This document shows, piece after piece, positions 34,914-49,361 of a stretch of 55,678 bases of DNA. The stretch's first letter is position 1. Each line of letters opens with the position of its first letter. Under the pieces are notes generated by a model that was given only the letters and a program-made list of their open reading frames with translations, had not been told where the DNA came from and did not search any database. Source of the DNA: a virus; the IMG/VR virus record IMGVR_UViG_3300020451_000899, positions 1-55,678 of that record; one strand, given 5' to 3'. A program made the position numbers and the translations under genes.

Positions 34914-34925
34914 TATAAAAGAAAA

Positions 34926-34945
34926 GGGGGGCATTTCTGCCCCCC
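34926..34945. terminator. Bidirectional intrinsic terminator between convergent blocks
   Basis: GGGGGGCA pairs perfectly with TGCCCCCC across a TTTC loop. On the minus strand the hairpin is followed by CTTTTCTTTT, a good U-tract; on the plus strand only TT follows. It therefore ends the minus-strand block well and probably also stops the plus-strand block. The plus-strand stop lies 13 bases away on one side, and the minus-strand last stop about 50 bases away on the other. Confidence 0.85.
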
Positions 34946-34946
34946 T

Positions 34947-34998
34947 TAGAGATGATAACCTGAATCTAGAATACACTAGATGATAAGCTGAATCTCTA
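34947..34998. repeat. 52-nt covarying hairpin element, copy C
   Basis: Outer stem TAGAGAT (34947-34953) pairs with ATCTCTA (34992-34998). Internal loops GATAACCTGA (34954-34963) and GATAAGCTGA (34982-34991) face each other. Inner stem ATCTAG pairs with CTAGAT, closing the hexaloop AATACA (34970-34975). On the minus strand the element begins exactly at the TAG stop of the last gene and is followed by the terminator. The same geometry occurs twice near 48.5 kb with different but still complementary outer stems. Function is unknown. Confidence 0.8.
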
Positions 34999-35328
34999 TT
35001 CTGCTACACCCTTCTTGGAGTTCCACTTGGTCCATCCATTGTCTGGTAGCCAATTGTCGCCATCCTTACGTTTAGGGAAGAGTCCTCCACCCTTCTTCAT
35101 GGAACCAAACGCAAGTTTAGCTCCACAGTCCATACATCGTAGCTCAAAGTATTCGTTTTCATCTACAGTCCTGACTACGAATCTAAGATTTTCAGAGCCG
35201 CACTTTCCACACTTTGTTTCTTCAAACACCTCTTGAAATTTGGATATTTGAGTGAAGAGTTCTCTGTGAGTGTCCGCATCGAACTCTGCTCTGATTCTGT
35301 TGTTTGCCGTTGTATAAGTTAACTTCAT
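34996..35328 (-). CDS. Zinc-ribbon protein next to the annealing-type gene
   Basis: This 110-residue protein has one clear zinc ribbon: CGKC at about residues 40-43 and CMDC at about 65-68, separated by beta strands (LRFVVRTVDENEYFELR). A basic Gly-rich C-terminal part follows (MKKGGGLFPKRK). Its ATG abuts the stop of the upstream gene as TAAATG, so the two are surely co-translated. Many phages carry a small zinc-ribbon protein beside recombination genes; nucleic-acid binding is likely, but the partner is inferred. The stop codon lies inside the copy C hairpin element, so the end of this mRNA may be structured. Confidence 0.6.
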   Translation of the reverse strand: MKLTYTTANNRIRAEFDADTHRELFTQISKFQEVFEETKCGKCGSENLRFVVRTVDENEYFELRCMDCGAKLAFGSMKKGGGLFPKRKDGDNWLPDNGWTKWNSKKGVAE

Positions 35329-43447: not shown

Positions 43448-45013
43448 TTAAATTTCGTGGATTTTATCAACAATAAAGGAGCTATCATTCTTACTAACAC
43501 TTCCACAAAGTATGAGATTATTTCCTTCATATAATATATATTTATATTTAGATTTGACGCTGGGGAATATAATTACGCTATCTAATACAGACGATTCATC
43601 TTCTATAGTCAGAAATGACATAAGCTTCCCTTGGGAATCCCCTTTCTTTATTTTATAATCTGCCATTCTTGTTATGTTGCCAACTACACATAGATTCTTT
43701 CCCTTTTTACCATTAACTATTTCCTTACACGTTGTGTTGGCGGCAGACGTATCTGAAGCATCTACTTTAGACATGCTAACTGGACATCCCAAAAATCTAG
43801 TTTCTTGATCTATAATCCAGCTGGGGTCATCAGAAAGATCGTATGGGGGATCTTCCAGCAATTGTATTTCATTTTGGACAGCTTGACTTCTTTCTATTTT
43901 GTGGGTTCCACCCCCCTGTTTTTTTGTGGGAGCCAAGTCAGTAAGACACTTTATGAAGTCTTTCCATTTCTTTTGATTATAATTTTTTTGTATCCAAGCT
44001 TGTTCTGCTTTGGTTAGCGTTCTAAATATTTCGTAGTCGTAAAGCGCTTTGTTTCTGCTTATCTTTCCATCAAAGTCTCTAAAAAATCCTACAGAGGCTA
44101 GTGCTTTAAAAGCTGTTGAATTTATATTAGGAGCAAAAAACAATAGTATTTCTATCCATGTAAATTTTTTGATGTTTTTATTACATGTCTCTTCAGCCAA
44201 TTTGATTCCATCTGTTACTTTATCTCCTGTCTTTCCTGTCAGAGATTTAATATCTTTTATACCAAAATATACTTTCTTATTTTTTATATTGAACTTAGAA
44301 TCAAAGTTTGCTATACTAGGAGTCCTCGCCTGTATATCAAAGAGTTTCGCTTCTGATATTAACTCATATATTTCTTGATGTGGATCTTGTTTTTCATTTG
44401 CATAATACAAGTAGGCTAGAAAAAATTCTTCTGGATTGTGAGCCTTTTGGTAAGCACTCCAATAAGAGCATACTGCATATGATACACTATGAGACTTATT
44501 AAAAGCATATCTAGAAGATTTTTCAATCCAGCTAAATATTTCTTCAGCCGTGTCTTTGTCTACAATCCCAGTTTTCTTAGACCCAGATATAAACTTCTTT
44601 TTGACCTTAGCCATTAGGTCTGCTTTTTTCTTACCAATTGCTTTTCGTAGAACGTCTGCTTCTTCAAGATTGAAACCAGCTATCTTCTGTGCAATACGCA
44701 TAGATTGTTCTTGATAGACTAAGACTCCATAGGTTGGCATTAGTATTTCTTCTAGTGACTCGTGTAGATATGTCACATCCTCTCTACCATGCTTACGGTC
44801 AATGAAGTGTTGAGTCATAGACTTACCATCTACAAATGCTTTTAAGCATCCGGGACGTATAATAGCTATCAAAGCAGACAACTCTTCTAGAGTATTTGGT
44901 GCAAGTTTTTTAGACCAAGATTTTCCAAGATTGCTCTCTAGCTGGAACACGCCCTTGGTTTTACCTTCAGCGAACAATTGCCAAGTCTTTTTATCATCAT
45001 AAGATGTGTTCAT
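43448..45013 (-). CDS. dnaE: DNA polymerase III alpha subunit, C-terminal half (split gene)
   Basis: This 521-residue protein starts at an ATG (MNTSYDDKKTWQLF) and opens with the region that follows the palm in bacterial alpha subunits: GVFQLES (21-27), then IRPGCL, the DRKHGRE block, PTYGVLVYQEQSMRIAQ, RKAIGKKK and YAFNKSHSVSYA. A helix-hairpin-helix region follows, then an OB-fold domain over the last 80 residues (CVVGNITRMADYKIK, LMSFLTIEDES). The three catalytic Asp residues are not here; they are on the N-half encoded at 46916-48478. The protein must therefore act with that partner. No intein C-domain precedes it. Its start overlaps the glycosyltransferase gene upstream by 17 bases. Confidence 0.9.
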   Translation of the reverse strand: MNTSYDDKKTWQLFAEGKTKGVFQLESNLGKSWSKKLAPNTLEELSALIAIIRPGCLKAFVDGKSMTQHFIDRKHGREDVTYLHESLEEILMPTYGVLVYQEQSMRIAQKIAGFNLEEADVLRKAIGKKKADLMAKVKKKFISGSKKTGIVDKDTAEEIFSWIEKSSRYAFNKSHSVSYAVCSYWSAYQKAHNPEEFFLAYLYYANEKQDPHQEIYELISEAKLFDIQARTPSIANFDSKFNIKNKKVYFGIKDIKSLTGKTGDKVTDGIKLAEETCNKNIKKFTWIEILLFFAPNINSTAFKALASVGFFRDFDGKISRNKALYDYEIFRTLTKAEQAWIQKNYNQKKWKDFIKCLTDLAPTKKQGGGTHKIERSQAVQNEIQLLEDPPYDLSDDPSWIIDQETRFLGCPVSMSKVDASDTSAANTTCKEIVNGKKGKNLCVVGNITRMADYKIKKGDSQGKLMSFLTIEDESSVLDSVIIFPSVKSKYKYILYEGNNLILCGSVSKNDSSFIVDKIHEI

Positions 45014-45647
45014 TCTTTATAACCTTTTTCAACGTGTCGTTCTTTTTGTTTATGGCTGTTTCAACATCTTCATACAAAGTACTATGATTGCAAGCGTGGT
45101 AAATAAATTGACCCTGACCATTAAACGCTTTTGAAGGAAACACTGATACTATATCTGTCATCTTAGCTTTCATCATAAATTGGAATAAGTCCTGATCATT
45201 TAATTCATAATTATTCGTACTCGCACCTTGAAAATAAGACATCAAAAATGTAATAACTTTTTTATTGTTACTAAATATGATTGAACCAGTATTTACATTC
45301 CAAGATATATCATCTTTTCCATCTTCTGCTGCACATATCATTATATCCTTGTCTGTCATCTTGGTAAAGATTCTGATATCTATATCATGATCTAATACCA
45401 CAGCGTCTGCGTCTAGCATAAAAACATAGTCAAAGTCATTTGTTACCAGAACGTCTCTAGCTAGAAAAAACTTATGATAATAATCTTTGTATTTACCGCT
45501 ATACGAAGATAAATTTACACCATCATATTGAGTTATATATTTGATATTATGCTTTTTGCAATACCGTTTGTTTATAGTCTCAACAATTTGTTGTGTATCT
45601 TTAAAAGCTTTGTCAAAGTAAACGCACATGGCGACATTACTTGACAT
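44997..45647 (-). CDS. DxD glycosyltransferase (GT-A, GT34-like)
   Basis: The ATG at 45647, preceded by GGGGGA, is preferred over a TTG at 45683; it gives 216 residues. The order of blocks fits a nucleotide-sugar-dependent GT-A enzyme: KYKDYYHKFFLARDVL (acceptor-side helix), YVFMLDADAVVLD with the DxD metal motif at about residues 79-81, NTGSIIFSNN, NDQDLFQ, and a late FNGQGQFIYHACNH. This layout recalls alpha-galactosyl or mannosyltransferases of the GT34 type. It lies between the exonuclease and the polymerase C-half and overlaps both, so it is expressed with the replication genes. Donor and acceptor are unknown. Confidence 0.7.
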   Translation of the reverse strand: MSSNVAMCVYFDKAFKDTQQIVETINKRYCKKHNIKYITQYDGVNLSSYSGKYKDYYHKFFLARDVLVTNDFDYVFMLDADAVVLDHDIDIRIFTKMTDKDIMICAAEDGKDDISWNVNTGSIIFSNNKKVITFLMSYFQGASTNNYELNDQDLFQFMMKAKMTDIVSVFPSKAFNGQGQFIYHACNHSTLYEDVETAINKKNDTLKKVIKNEHIL

Positions 45648-46317
45648 ACAATCCCCCGTTGGCAAAAGCTTTTTCAAATTCAATATTCTGATACACAGCT
45701 CTGTGAGTTTTTAGCAATTTGATAAAGATGTTGGCTGTATCTTTTACGTCTTGTAATGCGTCGTGAGCATTCTCTGTAGATAGCCCCATGCGTTCTCGTA
45801 GTGAATCCATGCTGATAGACCTGATACTTGGATCTCCCTCTGTCCACATATGCATGTTATCCATGACATCGCATTTATGAATCTTGCTAAAGATTTTTTG
45901 TTGCTGCCTTCCATCATCAAATGGTCCATATTCTTTACATAAACGGTTGATGATAATCATATCAAAACCAATAATATTAAAACCAACAGGGATGGGATTG
46001 AAGAACGGGTCTTTTTTCCAATTGTATTGATCCACAAAAGAGCAGAACTTTTTCCATACCGACTTTAAAGCTGGAGCTTTAGCTAAGTCTGTTCTGTTTT
46101 TACCAGTTACTTTTAAAGCCCCATCTTCAATTGGATCTAATCCAGCAGCAATAGCTTTATCGTCGTCTAGTATGGGTTTGATCTCACTATTGAATGTTCC
46201 TTTCATAGCCAAATTTCTTCCATCTAGTGCCAACGCAGCGATTTGCGTGGGTTGAGTTTTGTTGGGGTTACGACTTCCTGTTTCAAAGTCAAAAACTATA
46301 TAATCTCTGTTTGCCAT
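45637..46317 (-). CDS. DEDDh 3'-5' exonuclease, probable proofreading subunit
   Basis: This 226-residue protein shows the DnaQ-type exonuclease motifs in order: FDFET (D10, E12), NIIGFD (D119) and HDALQDVKDT (H185, D190). That is a complete DEDDh active site. An insertion between motifs I and II (about residues 45-105) makes it longer than the core domain. Lying between the halves of a split alpha subunit whose PHP domain looks inactive, it is a good candidate for the epsilon-like proofreader, hydrolysing mispaired 3' ends. No clamp-binding motif was identified. Confidence 0.85.
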   Translation of the reverse strand: MANRDYIVFDFETGSRNPNKTQPTQIAALALDGRNLAMKGTFNSEIKPILDDDKAIAAGLDPIEDGALKVTGKNRTDLAKAPALKSVWKKFCSFVDQYNWKKDPFFNPIPVGFNIIGFDMIIINRLCKEYGPFDDGRQQQKIFSKIHKCDVMDNMHMWTEGDPSIRSISMDSLRERMGLSTENAHDALQDVKDTANIFIKLLKTHRAVYQNIEFEKAFANGGLYVK

Positions 46318-46319
46318 AT

Positions 46320-46919
46320 TTATTTCCTTTTAGTAAGATCGGTATTCAATGAATCTGTTTTAGACTGTCTGTTGCTATATCCCTTCATATTCATGTAATT
46401 TAAGAATTGCGTCAACTTAGGGCTGTTGCTGTTACCCTTGCAAGCGCCGCCACAATGTATGTGTTCAAATGTAATATGAGAGACGTTGTATTTATTATAG
46501 TCGATAGTGTAAAGAATGTCAACATCAAGACCCTCAGTATCTATGTATAATCTTTCAATATCTTTTATATTATATTCTTCTAGTACTGAAGTTATAGTTC
46601 GAGCCGGATGGTTTACTTCAACAATATTTTCTGGAGGATGTCGATGGACTAACATGTGATCATAACTAAAAGACGTATGACCACTAAACATATTATTTTT
46701 TACATGGTAAAGAGTTATTTCTTCTTGATTGGAGTCTGGAGTGATAGCGCTTACAATAGTAGTTAATTTCTTTACATTTTTATATACTATATTTGCATTG
46801 TCTATAAAAGACTTATCAATGTCTATAAGTATTAGATGGTCAATTTTATCATTATTGTTATTAACATATCTACTCACATGATCATTACAATCATTACAAC
46901 CTATTTGTATTATATTCAT
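46320..46919 (-). CDS. FkbM-type SAM-dependent methyltransferase
   Basis: This 199-residue protein starts MNIIQIGCNDCNDHVSRYV, a SAM-loop strand. It then has LILIDIDKSF (acidic end of strand two) and ERLYIDTEGLDVDILYTID followed by HITFEHIH, the signature region of the FkbM family, with ITSVLEEY before it. FkbM enzymes usually methylate hydroxyl groups on sugars or small molecules. The gene overlaps the polymerase N-half as ATGA. Placed with glycosyltransferases and the split polymerase, it probably belongs to the glycan gene set rather than to replication. The C-terminus is a short polar tail. Confidence 0.75.
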   Translation of the reverse strand: MNIIQIGCNDCNDHVSRYVNNNNDKIDHLILIDIDKSFIDNANIVYKNVKKLTTIVSAITPDSNQEEITLYHVKNNMFSGHTSFSYDHMLVHRHPPENIVEVNHPARTITSVLEEYNIKDIERLYIDTEGLDVDILYTIDYNKYNVSHITFEHIHCGGACKGNSNSPKLTQFLNYMNMKGYSNRQSKTDSLNTDLTKRK

Positions 46920-48478
46920 TTTTTTAATTCCGTTATTTTCATCAATTTGTCTAAGAGATTGATGCCTAAAACATCAAACTTTACATGACCTAATGCTTCT
47001 AAGTCTGCCATTTCCAATCCAGCTATCTTTTCGCTTGAACCCTTTTGTACAACCATAGGGCATACGTTTTTCAATTGATCCTTAGATATTACAACGCCAG
47101 CTGCGTGTTTGCCCTGAGTTTTAAATGTACCTTCAATGTCAATTGCCTGCTGAAAGTATTCTGCGTAGTCTCCATCTAAATTGCCTTCATCTGTAATATG
47201 GCAAAAATCTCTCAATTCATCTGCCCTATTTATTAATGCCCATCTTATAATAGATCTGTCTTCATTGTCCATCTCTGCAAGTTGGTCAGATATATCTGCT
47301 TCATTTGGAACACTTTTGGTAATAGCGTTCATCTCACTAAAAGAACATGCCTCATTGACTCTAAGCACTTCTTTAATAGCGCTACGTCCTTGCAATCTAC
47401 CAAATGTAATCATTTGACTTACATGTTCGGTTCCATACTTTTCTTTTAAATAATCTATAACATCGTCCCGCTTCTTGCCGGGGACATCCATATCAATATC
47501 TGGTAGAGACACATGACCGCCAGTGTTACGCCCAGCGTTGTAGAATCTTTCAAATAGTAAATCATATTCTACTGGGTCAATTTTAGTTATTCCAATTAGG
47601 TATGATATTAAACATCCAGCAGCAGAACCTCTCCCCGGACCAGCTAAACATCCCATATCTTTTTCAATATGTCTTATGATGTCTTGCACAATTAAAAAGT
47701 AACCAAAGAGATCTGCGTCTTTAATAACTTTTAGCTCTTTTCTAAATCTATTACCGTACAACTCTCTTCTTGTTTCGTCGTCTCCAACCTTTTTTGATAG
47801 AAATCTCTTATAACCTTCACGCGCCATATTTGTTAAATACTCTTCTTGAGACAAACCTTTTGGGCAAAGAAACTTTGGTAGCATTGGTGGGCTTAATATT
47901 TCATAGTCTTCACACGATTGGTATATGTTTTCCAATTCTTTTGTAGCACCACCCTCTGTAATGCATTTATTGTCTTTAGTGAAGTATTCCAGTATTTCTG
48001 GGGTCAATTCATTTTTTCTAATCTTAGTCTGTATTTTGGGTAGTGTAGTCTTTAGTGCAGAGCATAATAATACTCTGTGTAAAGTAGCTTGTTCTTTTTT
48101 CGCATAATATGATGGATTGATGCTATCCTTAGATTTAGATACTGCTATAAGATTATTTCTACTTATAATATCTTTAGCAATATCTTTGGGCGTATTACCG
48201 TCTGCATCAGTCATTGATACCATCTGTATAAGATCGTGCCAGCCATCCTTGTTCTTGGCGTACACAGTCGTATTGTCAAATGAACAGCCAATGATTGGCT
48301 TAATGCCAACCTTCTTGCAGGCTTGATGGAAAGATACTGCGCCTGATATAGATTTATAGTCCGTAATCCCACAGGCTGGATAGTCATTGTCCGCACAAAT
48401 CTTTGCAAGCTCGTGCGGCTTAGAAAATCCTTTTAGTAAACTATAATGCGTAAAATTCTTCAATGGAAACCAGTTCAA
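46916..48478 (-). CDS. dnaE: DNA polymerase III alpha subunit, N-terminal half (split gene)
   Basis: This 520-residue protein starts at a TTG, five bases after a strong GAGGAGG site. Residues 1-200 are a PHP-like domain whose metal ligands look lost: LKNFTHYSLLKG where active forms have H-x-H and D, and ITDY where they have TDH. The palm follows: GPGRGSAAG (280-288), LPDIDMDV with D327 and D329, GKHAAGVVIS (about 457-465), and VKFDVLG with D502, so all three catalytic Asp residues are present. The frame stops 18 residues after D502 at KITELKK. The rest of the enzyme is encoded at 43448-45013. The 5' untranslated region holds hairpin elements A and B. Confidence 0.92.
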   Translation of the reverse strand: MNWFPLKNFTHYSLLKGFSKPHELAKICADNDYPACGITDYKSISGAVSFHQACKKVGIKPIIGCSFDNTTVYAKNKDGWHDLIQMVSMTDADGNTPKDIAKDIISRNNLIAVSKSKDSINPSYYAKKEQATLHRVLLCSALKTTLPKIQTKIRKNELTPEILEYFTKDNKCITEGGATKELENIYQSCEDYEILSPPMLPKFLCPKGLSQEEYLTNMAREGYKRFLSKKVGDDETRRELYGNRFRKELKVIKDADLFGYFLIVQDIIRHIEKDMGCLAGPGRGSAAGCLISYLIGITKIDPVEYDLLFERFYNAGRNTGGHVSLPDIDMDVPGKKRDDVIDYLKEKYGTEHVSQMITFGRLQGRSAIKEVLRVNEACSFSEMNAITKSVPNEADISDQLAEMDNEDRSIIRWALINRADELRDFCHITDEGNLDGDYAEYFQQAIDIEGTFKTQGKHAAGVVISKDQLKNVCPMVVQKGSSEKIAGLEMADLEALGHVKFDVLGINLLDKLMKITELKK

Positions 48479-48502: not shown

Positions 48503-48554
48503 GCCAGATACTAGCATGAATCTAGAATTAACTAGATGATAATCTTAATCTGGC
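48503..48554. repeat. 52-nt covarying hairpin element, copy A
   Basis: Outer stem GCCAGAT (48503-48509) pairs with ATCTGGC (48548-48554). Internal loops are ACTAGCATGA (48510-48519) and GATAATCTTA (48538-48547). Inner stem ATCTAG pairs with CTAGAT and closes the hexaloop AATTAA (48526-48531). It lies 10 bases from copy B and, on the minus strand, between B and the ribosome binding site of the polymerase N-half. Its left loop departs most from the consensus GATAANNTGA. Confidence 0.8.
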
Positions 48555-48564
48555 TTTGTATGGT

Positions 48565-48616
48565 GACGGATAATAAGTTGAATCTAGAATTAACTAGATG
48601 ATAATATGAATCCGTC
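48565..48616. repeat. 52-nt covarying hairpin element, copy B
   Basis: Outer stem GACGGAT (48565-48571) pairs with ATCCGTC (48610-48616), extended by one T-A pair outside. Internal loops are AATAAGTTGA (48572-48581) and GATAATATGA (48600-48609). Inner stem ATCTAG pairs with CTAGAT around AATTAA (48588-48593). It lies in the 178-base gap between the PAP2 gene and the polymerase N-half, in tandem with copy A. A weak minus-strand promoter reading (TTGATA, 16 bases, TATCAT) overlaps it. Confidence 0.82.
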
Positions 48617-48656: not shown

Positions 48657-49361
48657 TCAGACCTTGGGCTGTCTGTCAAGGGTATCTTCTCTGGTTCCGG
48701 CTTGTTCATCATAATGCTCTTTGATTTTAGGGTATAATTTATTTACTGCTATAACGCTTGCTTCATTGTCTGATGGGTAATGAACTCCCTGTAATATTCT
48801 AGCCAAAGCGCAGTACTTTGCCAATTCAAAAAAATCTTTTTTATGTTCAATATATTTGTTAGACAAAACGTGGGCTATCAATTCTGCATACATTGTGTGA
48901 CCACTGGGATAAGACGGGGTGTAATGCGTCTCTGTGTATAAGATATTAATTTTCTTATTGTAATATGGAGCTATTTGTTCTGGCCTCGCTCTATTAAAAT
49001 AATACTTTAAAGCATACATGTATTGTTCTAACACATTGTAATAACTATTAATAGTGGCTACAGGGAAGCTCAAATTTCTTTGCTCTAAGAAAGGTAGAAA
49101 TATATTAACGGGTGAATCATCAACATTATATACTAAGTCAATTTCCCTCCTAGTCCTAGACCGTGTAGCTTCTATAATAGCGTCTAATTCTCTAGACGTT
49201 GTTGCGCTACTGTTTTTAGGTGGTGCTGGTATAATACTCTTAAAGTCTATATCAAGTGTAGAAATATGATCATCGTATGACACTTTATTTGCTAAGTAAG
49301 CAACGTCATCTATATCTCTGCTAGTATCTATAATTTTGGCTACGTTATTTATTAAGCTCAT
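48657..49361 (-). CDS. PAP2-family acid phosphatase-like protein
   Basis: This 234-residue protein has the three PAP2/haloperoxidase-type motifs in order: K119-x6-R126-P127 (KYYFNRARP), P152-S-G-H155 (YPSGHTMY) and R188-x5-H194-x3-D198 (ARILQGVHYPSD; Ala replaces the usual Ser before Arg). His194 would be the nucleophile and His155 the acid. No signal peptide or membrane helix is evident, so it should act in the cytoplasm of the infected cell, unlike most class A phosphatases. It overlaps the DUF6356-like gene by 17 bases. The substrate is unknown; phosphorylated sugars or nucleotides are plausible given the neighbours. Confidence 0.8.
   Translation of the reverse strand: MSLINNVAKIIDTSRDIDDVAYLANKVSYDDHISTLDIDFKSIIPAPPKNSSATTSRELDAIIEATRSRTRREIDLVYNVDDSPVNIFLPFLEQRNLSFPVATINSYYNVLEQYMYALKYYFNRARPEQIAPYYNKKINILYTETHYTPSYPSGHTMYAELIAHVLSNKYIEHKKDFFELAKYCALARILQGVHYPSDNEASVIAVNKLYPKIKEHYDEQAGTREDTLDRQPKV

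Follow-up and report, generated by a model that had tools for sequence, protein, structure and literature searches.

Two-fold-symmetric hairpins with hypervariable loop triplets suggest a new kind of RNA element in marine phages

We found that three hairpin elements in the virus record IMGVR_UViG_3300020451_000899 (55,678 bp, analysed at full length and called the window here) belong to a family of 70 distinct elements in about 30 uncultured phage contigs of IMG/VR, mostly from marine phages. Comparison among the copies establishes the predicted fold, the sense strand, the conserved UCA and UY loop motifs and the change of three loop positions (NNN) at a rate faster than neutral. The element appears not to have been catalogued before, and a fold in which all but these fast-changing triplets is conserved or compensated hints at a new type of phage RNA element under a diversifying pressure. 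We propose, with a probability of about one half, that it acts in cis at mRNA ends and intercistronic junctions, in transcript stability, processing or end marking. At similarly even odds, it would represent a class of phage RNA not known until now, whose conserved, two-fold-symmetric scaffold carries two 3-nt bulges that are kept in flux by diversifying selection (an RNA-level arms race or an identity tag) or by targeted mutation of these three positions.

An earlier note on this DNA had described three 52-nt copies of constant geometry, an observation that is real but understates what exists. Reading of the sequence and RNAfold both agree with the coordinates and stems that it gave for element A (48503..48554, outer stem GCCAGAT/ATCTGGC, 7 bp), element B (48565..48616, GACGGAT/ATCCGTC, 8 bp if a flanking T-A is counted) and element C (34947..34998, TAGAGAT/ATCTCTA). 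A and B stand in tandem with a 10-nt spacer and share the inner stem ATCTAG/CTAGAT; A has two 6x2 loops and a 6-nt hairpin loop. The window contains three copies of the core TGAATCTAGAATNNACTAGATGATAA, in one shared orientation, and none of its reversed control. While the note had read the plus strand, the functional strand is the minus one, to which the mRNA of the flanking genes corresponds, and A, B and C would thus lie inside transcripts of minus-strand genes. With RNAfold, the 7-bp and 6-bp stems appear in each of the six combinations of strand and copy, with z-scores of -3.0 to -5.6 and with 0-2 of 200 shuffled sequences folding equally well; in two of the six (B on the plus strand, C on the minus strand) a few extra pairs form within the internal loop at minimum energy.

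The family was extended with the DNA polymerase gene next to A and B as bait, which yielded 66 related viral loci, and a structural scan found the tandem A/B pair upstream of the polymerase gene in several close relatives as well. A covariance-model search, which the note had proposed, recovered further copies with pairing retained: model R1, built from the early finds, detected them in the same records, among them seven in one 119.9-kb record (G002), three of these in tandem. A relaxed pattern without fixed stems led to copies in other viral contigs whose outer and inner stems are wholly different, and the set of 70 was reached with covariance model R2 and a second pattern. In the latter, outer pairs 1-4 and the central pairs are unconstrained. 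It provided a model-independent check, since its 83 distinct matches fall into two groups: 15 have all four outer pairs complementary, and 14 of these 15 also both central pairs, whereas slid controls reached four of four at most once. The window copies have the fold, the UCA...UY core and the two central base pairs of the R2 model, and are members of this family. A control pattern of wrong geometry, with each loop one base short, had 16 matches in viral contigs, none of which has the fold. The exact core pattern had no match among viral contigs, partly because the record of the query was excluded, and a related pattern had none among prokaryote genome contigs; the 12 pattern matches in 84,980 prokaryote genomes include no member, and in none are outer and central pairs both complementary. 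Matches in two records (G043 and G008) were rejected as chance, with much of the fold missing. The note had recognised no known RNA family in the elements, and no family of Rfam 15 reaches its gathering threshold (best chance match 20.8 bits, threshold 54.3), and the only Rfam matches in the scan of the records were two tRNAs elsewhere in one contig (L168). The titles and abstracts of the literature searched hold no description of such an element, and no close cultured relative emerged when the neighbouring proteins were compared by tblastn with 50,697 phage records.

In the stems, pairing is conserved while sequence changes. In an alignment of 33 sequences, 92.9% of the pair cells are standard and 14 of 17 pairs have changed on both sides; the covariation score is 0.591, compared with 0.213 for shuffled alignments and at most 0.12 for slid controls, and RNAalifold independently gives both stems. 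The claim that the outer stem stays paired despite sequence change is borne out by further homologues, in which both stems are altered yet complementary. A double-stranded DNA operator would be expected to conserve sequence at both half-sites, whereas the outer stem has altered on both sides at six of seven pairs and is always paired. Its sole never-changing pair is the U-A adjoining the loop; the GAT/ATC segment, which had been taken as fixed, is so in A, B and C, but the wider family also has GGT/ACC, AGT/ACT and AAT/ATT. The mRNA-strand consensus reads X6-U-UCANNN-NR-UY-A-[inner stem, loop, inner stem]-U-UCANNN-NN-UY-A-X6'. Of its two central pairs, one is Watson-Crick in 68/70 elements and the other in 70/70 (20.9 and 30.5 expected; together 138/140), and the candidate pairs flanking these two are as frequent as by chance. 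The internal region thus consists of two inverted 6x2 loops (UCANNN/UY) around exactly 2 bp, so that the 10+10-nt internal loop of the note is indeed a region between the stems, but one that holds two Watson-Crick pairs in a shifted register. A 4-bp central helix, which is part of models R1 and R2, was rejected, as only the middle two pairs exceed chance. Within the loops, U1 and A3 are invariant (140/140 each), and C2 and U9 are found in 129/140 and 130/140 cases.

Between orthologs, the stems, UCA/UY and the hairpin loop barely change, and N4-N6 of both loop strands do. In the window these triplets lie on the minus strand at 48542..48544 (5' loop) and 48514..48516 (3' loop) of A, 48604..48606 and 48576..48578 of B, all four of them hypervariable, and 34986..34988 and 34958..34960 of C. 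Relatives differ at 50-83% of the triplet positions and at 12-25% of nearby 4-fold sites. Contig L025 and the window differ at 10/12 N positions, 77/505 local 4-fold sites (P 3e-7) and 7/92 positions in the rest of the element; for L006 and L049 the values are 10/12, 62/510 (P 4e-8) and 4/92, and for the triple cluster in L110 and L106 (genomes G001 and G038, the nearest genes of which diverge by 0.03-0.11) they are 13/18, 148/613 (P 2e-5) and 7/138. The pair L134 and L133 has 2/6 N positions and 13/735 4-fold sites changed (P 0.005), and contigs L070 and L005 have a single mismatch in 14,191 bp, at N4' of element B, equivalent to the 3' triplet of B in the window. Deeper ortholog pairs are saturated. 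Across the set, 51 of the 64 possible triplets occur, with all four bases at the variable positions. Three probable copies lie within a reading frame (L039 5252-5304, L040 504-556 and L066 5177-5229), a 144-aa open reading frame (ORF) upstream of the polymerase. L039 and L040 differ within the element solely at triplet and central positions (11-13, 15, 42, 43), which alters amino acids, and because of this restriction the in-ORF copies (G046/L039/L040) are probably real; they were left out of the statistics.

Several sources of this variation could be set aside. Loop swapping between copies is not the cause, because the central pairs are mostly fixed between close orthologs, and neither is single-strandedness alone, because the unpaired hairpin loop is not hypervariable. 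A kissing or complementary-loop RNA pair was rejected, since triplet complementarity does not exceed chance, either between elements of one genome (2 pairs, 4.5 expected) or within elements (1, 0.96 expected). Diversity-generating retroelements also show localised hypervariability at fixed positions; here, however, all four bases occur at these positions, and no reverse transcriptase (PF00078) was found in 15 records, several of them fragments, with a positive control, so that variation driven by such an enzyme was rejected. Diversifying selection and a focused mutation process remain as candidate explanations for the triplet change.

The set as a whole points to a transcribed RNA. Wobble-type cells on the sense strand comprise 20 G-U and no A-C in the outer stem, and 12 G-U and 6 A-C in the inner stem. 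The element runs in the same direction as the upstream ORF in 67 of 68 cases, and the downstream ORF is opposed in 10 of 67, which assigns the element to the upstream transcript; it is this co-orientation, together with G-U wobbles on the mRNA strand, that makes transcription likely. The sites include positions after stop codons, in terminators, near promoter +1 and beside tRNAs. Nine elements have a tRNA within 200 nt, several of them at a distance of 3-7 nt, in some cases on both sides (L217@6238, L225@10564). A perfect TATAAT lies 4-12 nt upstream in 6/70 elements, compared with 0.7% of random positions, in some of them together with a perfect TTGACA (L216, L264), and with this spacing the RNA would start about at the stem, near +1 of a sigma-70-like promoter. 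Directly downstream, a T-run follows 15/70 elements, compared with 5% of random positions, and rarely the same elements that have the promoter -10. Both enrichments are somewhat overstated, because the null consists of random positions in the same loci and not just intergenic ones. To judge by the neighbouring genes and motifs, the common denominator of these positions is transcript ends and junctions, and this placement fits an RNA-level element and neither a DNA operator nor a cruciform.

The elements may thus be cis-acting structured RNAs in the untranslated parts of transcripts, that is, at 5' ends, 3' ends and gene-gene or gene-tRNA junctions. Each would form one hairpin with a two-fold-symmetric core, in which identical 6x2 loops (U-UCANNN / UY-A) face each other across two base pairs. 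A3 of one strand could pair with U9 of the other, in which case the triplets would protrude as 3-nt bulges, as they probably do. The symmetry of the core suggests a dimeric protein or two-site recognition, and we infer that its surface could be recognised, the simplest candidate being a homodimeric RNA-binding protein or RNase that would mark, process or protect transcript ends and would come from the host or be common to the whole phage lineage. The triplets might be under diversifying selection by whatever reads them, perhaps a factor of the host or of a competitor, or else be hit by targeted mutation. If this proposal is true, the non-coding part of marine phage genomes, about which little is known, gains a widespread RNA element, which offers a compact case of positions inside a conserved RNA fold that evolve faster than neutral sites. 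It would also predict that something yet to be found reads the triplets, be it a host defence, a competitor or a phage factor, or that a new process of focused mutation acts on them.

Several points weigh against this proposal. The elements are known here from DNA sequence alone, and a role in end protection or processing is read from location only. In a gene-content comparison, limited by fragments and small ORFs, no protein family is common to the element-bearing phages yet missing from close non-bearing relatives; with none of the phage protein families following the elements, the partner is more likely to be a host factor or a core protein of the phage. Three close relatives (G008, G013 and G034) share most core genes and have no convincing copy, so that the element is dispensable for the lineage. 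As to the triplets, the pair L261-L259 has 0/6 changed at 4% 4-fold divergence, some comparisons are marginal (P 0.01-0.04), and the compared pairs are not all mutually independent.

Control of transcription by a nascent hairpin acting on RNA polymerase, in the manner of HK022 put antitermination or as a specialised terminator or attenuator, is an unlikely alternative, although in some copies the start falls at about +1 of sigma-70-like promoters, much as putL follows closely on an early promoter, and others resemble terminators with a T-run and an extended GC stem (L216@3147, L217@1225, L210@3005). The activity demanded by promoter placement is the opposite of that demanded at terminators, most copies lack both promoter and T-run, and antitermination leaves the hypervariable triplets unexplained. 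HK022 put is likewise a cis-acting phage RNA, but as described (PMC9378689) it comprises two stem-loops in about 70 nt, with two copies near early promoters and a different core. Our element, in contrast, is one symmetric hairpin whose sites include 3' ends and the vicinity of tRNAs, and many copies stand alone without the second, adjacent stem-loop that completes the active unit of put. The PeSLs of T4-like phages, promoter/stem-loop motifs linked to gene shuffling, are also intergenic stem-loops with sigma-70 promoters or terminators, but differ, as described (PMC4503421), from the present elements with their conserved internal-loop core and usually no promoter. A function akin to put or to the T4 PeSLs is possible, whereas membership in either group is not supported.

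Intercistronic and tRNA-flanking positions would also suit a processing site of the RNase III type: host RNase III, or a nuclease of the phage, would bind the helix of about 23 steps and cut near the central 2 bp, so as to release messages and tRNAs from each other, as happens at phage T7 sites. The T7 sites likewise lie between cistrons and are hairpins with an internal loop and a helix of similar length, and the 2-nt stagger of RNase III cuts would be matched by a dyad with exactly 2 bp between its loops. However, paired RNA is normally required where the loops of the element fall, processing would not be needed at +1 or within terminators, and the invariant UCA/UY and the triplets find no explanation; T7 sites are not known to have a conserved UCA/UY symmetric core or hypervariable triplets. 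We regard this explanation as quite improbable.

An element acting at the DNA level, be it an extruded hairpin, a single-stranded site for a recombinase, transposase or replication enzyme, or a small mobile or structural repeat, might account for multi-copy intergenic palindromes, tandem copies and the partial deletion of B in contig L069. It is nevertheless very unlikely, given that a cruciform would not be expected to have strand-specific wobbles (20:0) or an orientation that tracks transcription (67/68), that the hairpin loop is as unpaired as the triplets without their hypervariability, and that element positions are retained among relatives. Of the two options in the earlier note, structured RNA or extruded hairpin, the former is thus favoured by wobbles, gene orientation and transcript-end placement. 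REP/BIME elements are multi-copy intergenic hairpins as well, sometimes in tandem, but REP are bacterial chromosomal repeats of conserved sequence, whereas the present elements have been found in phage contigs only and change sequence at fixed geometry. Least credible of all is a false hypervariability that arose when repeated elements were assembled from metagenome data: all sequences are metagenome contigs and one element (in L109) contains a 10-N gap, yet mis-joined copies would shuffle whole loops, whereas central pairs and stems stay between orthologs and only the triplets change, there are 51 different triplets, and the independent contigs L070 and L005 are identical elsewhere across 14 kb.

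The gene settings of the window copies, all on the minus strand, are as follows. A lies 24 nt upstream of the start of a DNA polymerase III alpha-like gene with PHP and NTPase domains (46916..48478), which is preceded by the ribosome-binding site GGAGGAAAG. Upstream of B, a co-directional PAP2-family phosphatase gene (48657..49361), which is also kept in relatives, has its stop 40 nt before the element. C stands at a convergent gene junction and begins with the TAG stop codon (first 3 nt) of the co-directional upstream gene (34996..35328), which has a weak TFIIS-type zinc-ribbon match below the Pfam cut-off. Directly 3' of C follows an intrinsic terminator (34917..34945), GGGGGGC-AGAAAT-GCCCCCC and then TTTTCTTTT. 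The polymerase is split (43448-48478): the PHP/NTPase ORF is separated from a finger ORF (43448-45013) by an exonuclease-like ORF (45637-46317) and other ORFs. A small SSB-family protein (PF00436; 43083-43400) is encoded in 10 element-bearing records and in one of three non-bearing relatives.

The relatives G008, G013 and G034 would offer a natural experiment of gain and loss in one phage lineage. In L069 (8480-8561), element B is cut to a 5' remnant, GACGGATTCATC, directly abutting A, which suggests recombination or deletion at repeats. The 10-N scaffold gap of L109 (G049) falls in the middle element of a triple cluster, near triplet and central positions and between two intact elements, and is possibly an assembly break caused by population polymorphism. 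The 166.5-kb contig L240 carries four tandem elements within 300 nt (116-406), directly upstream of a tRNA-Arg.
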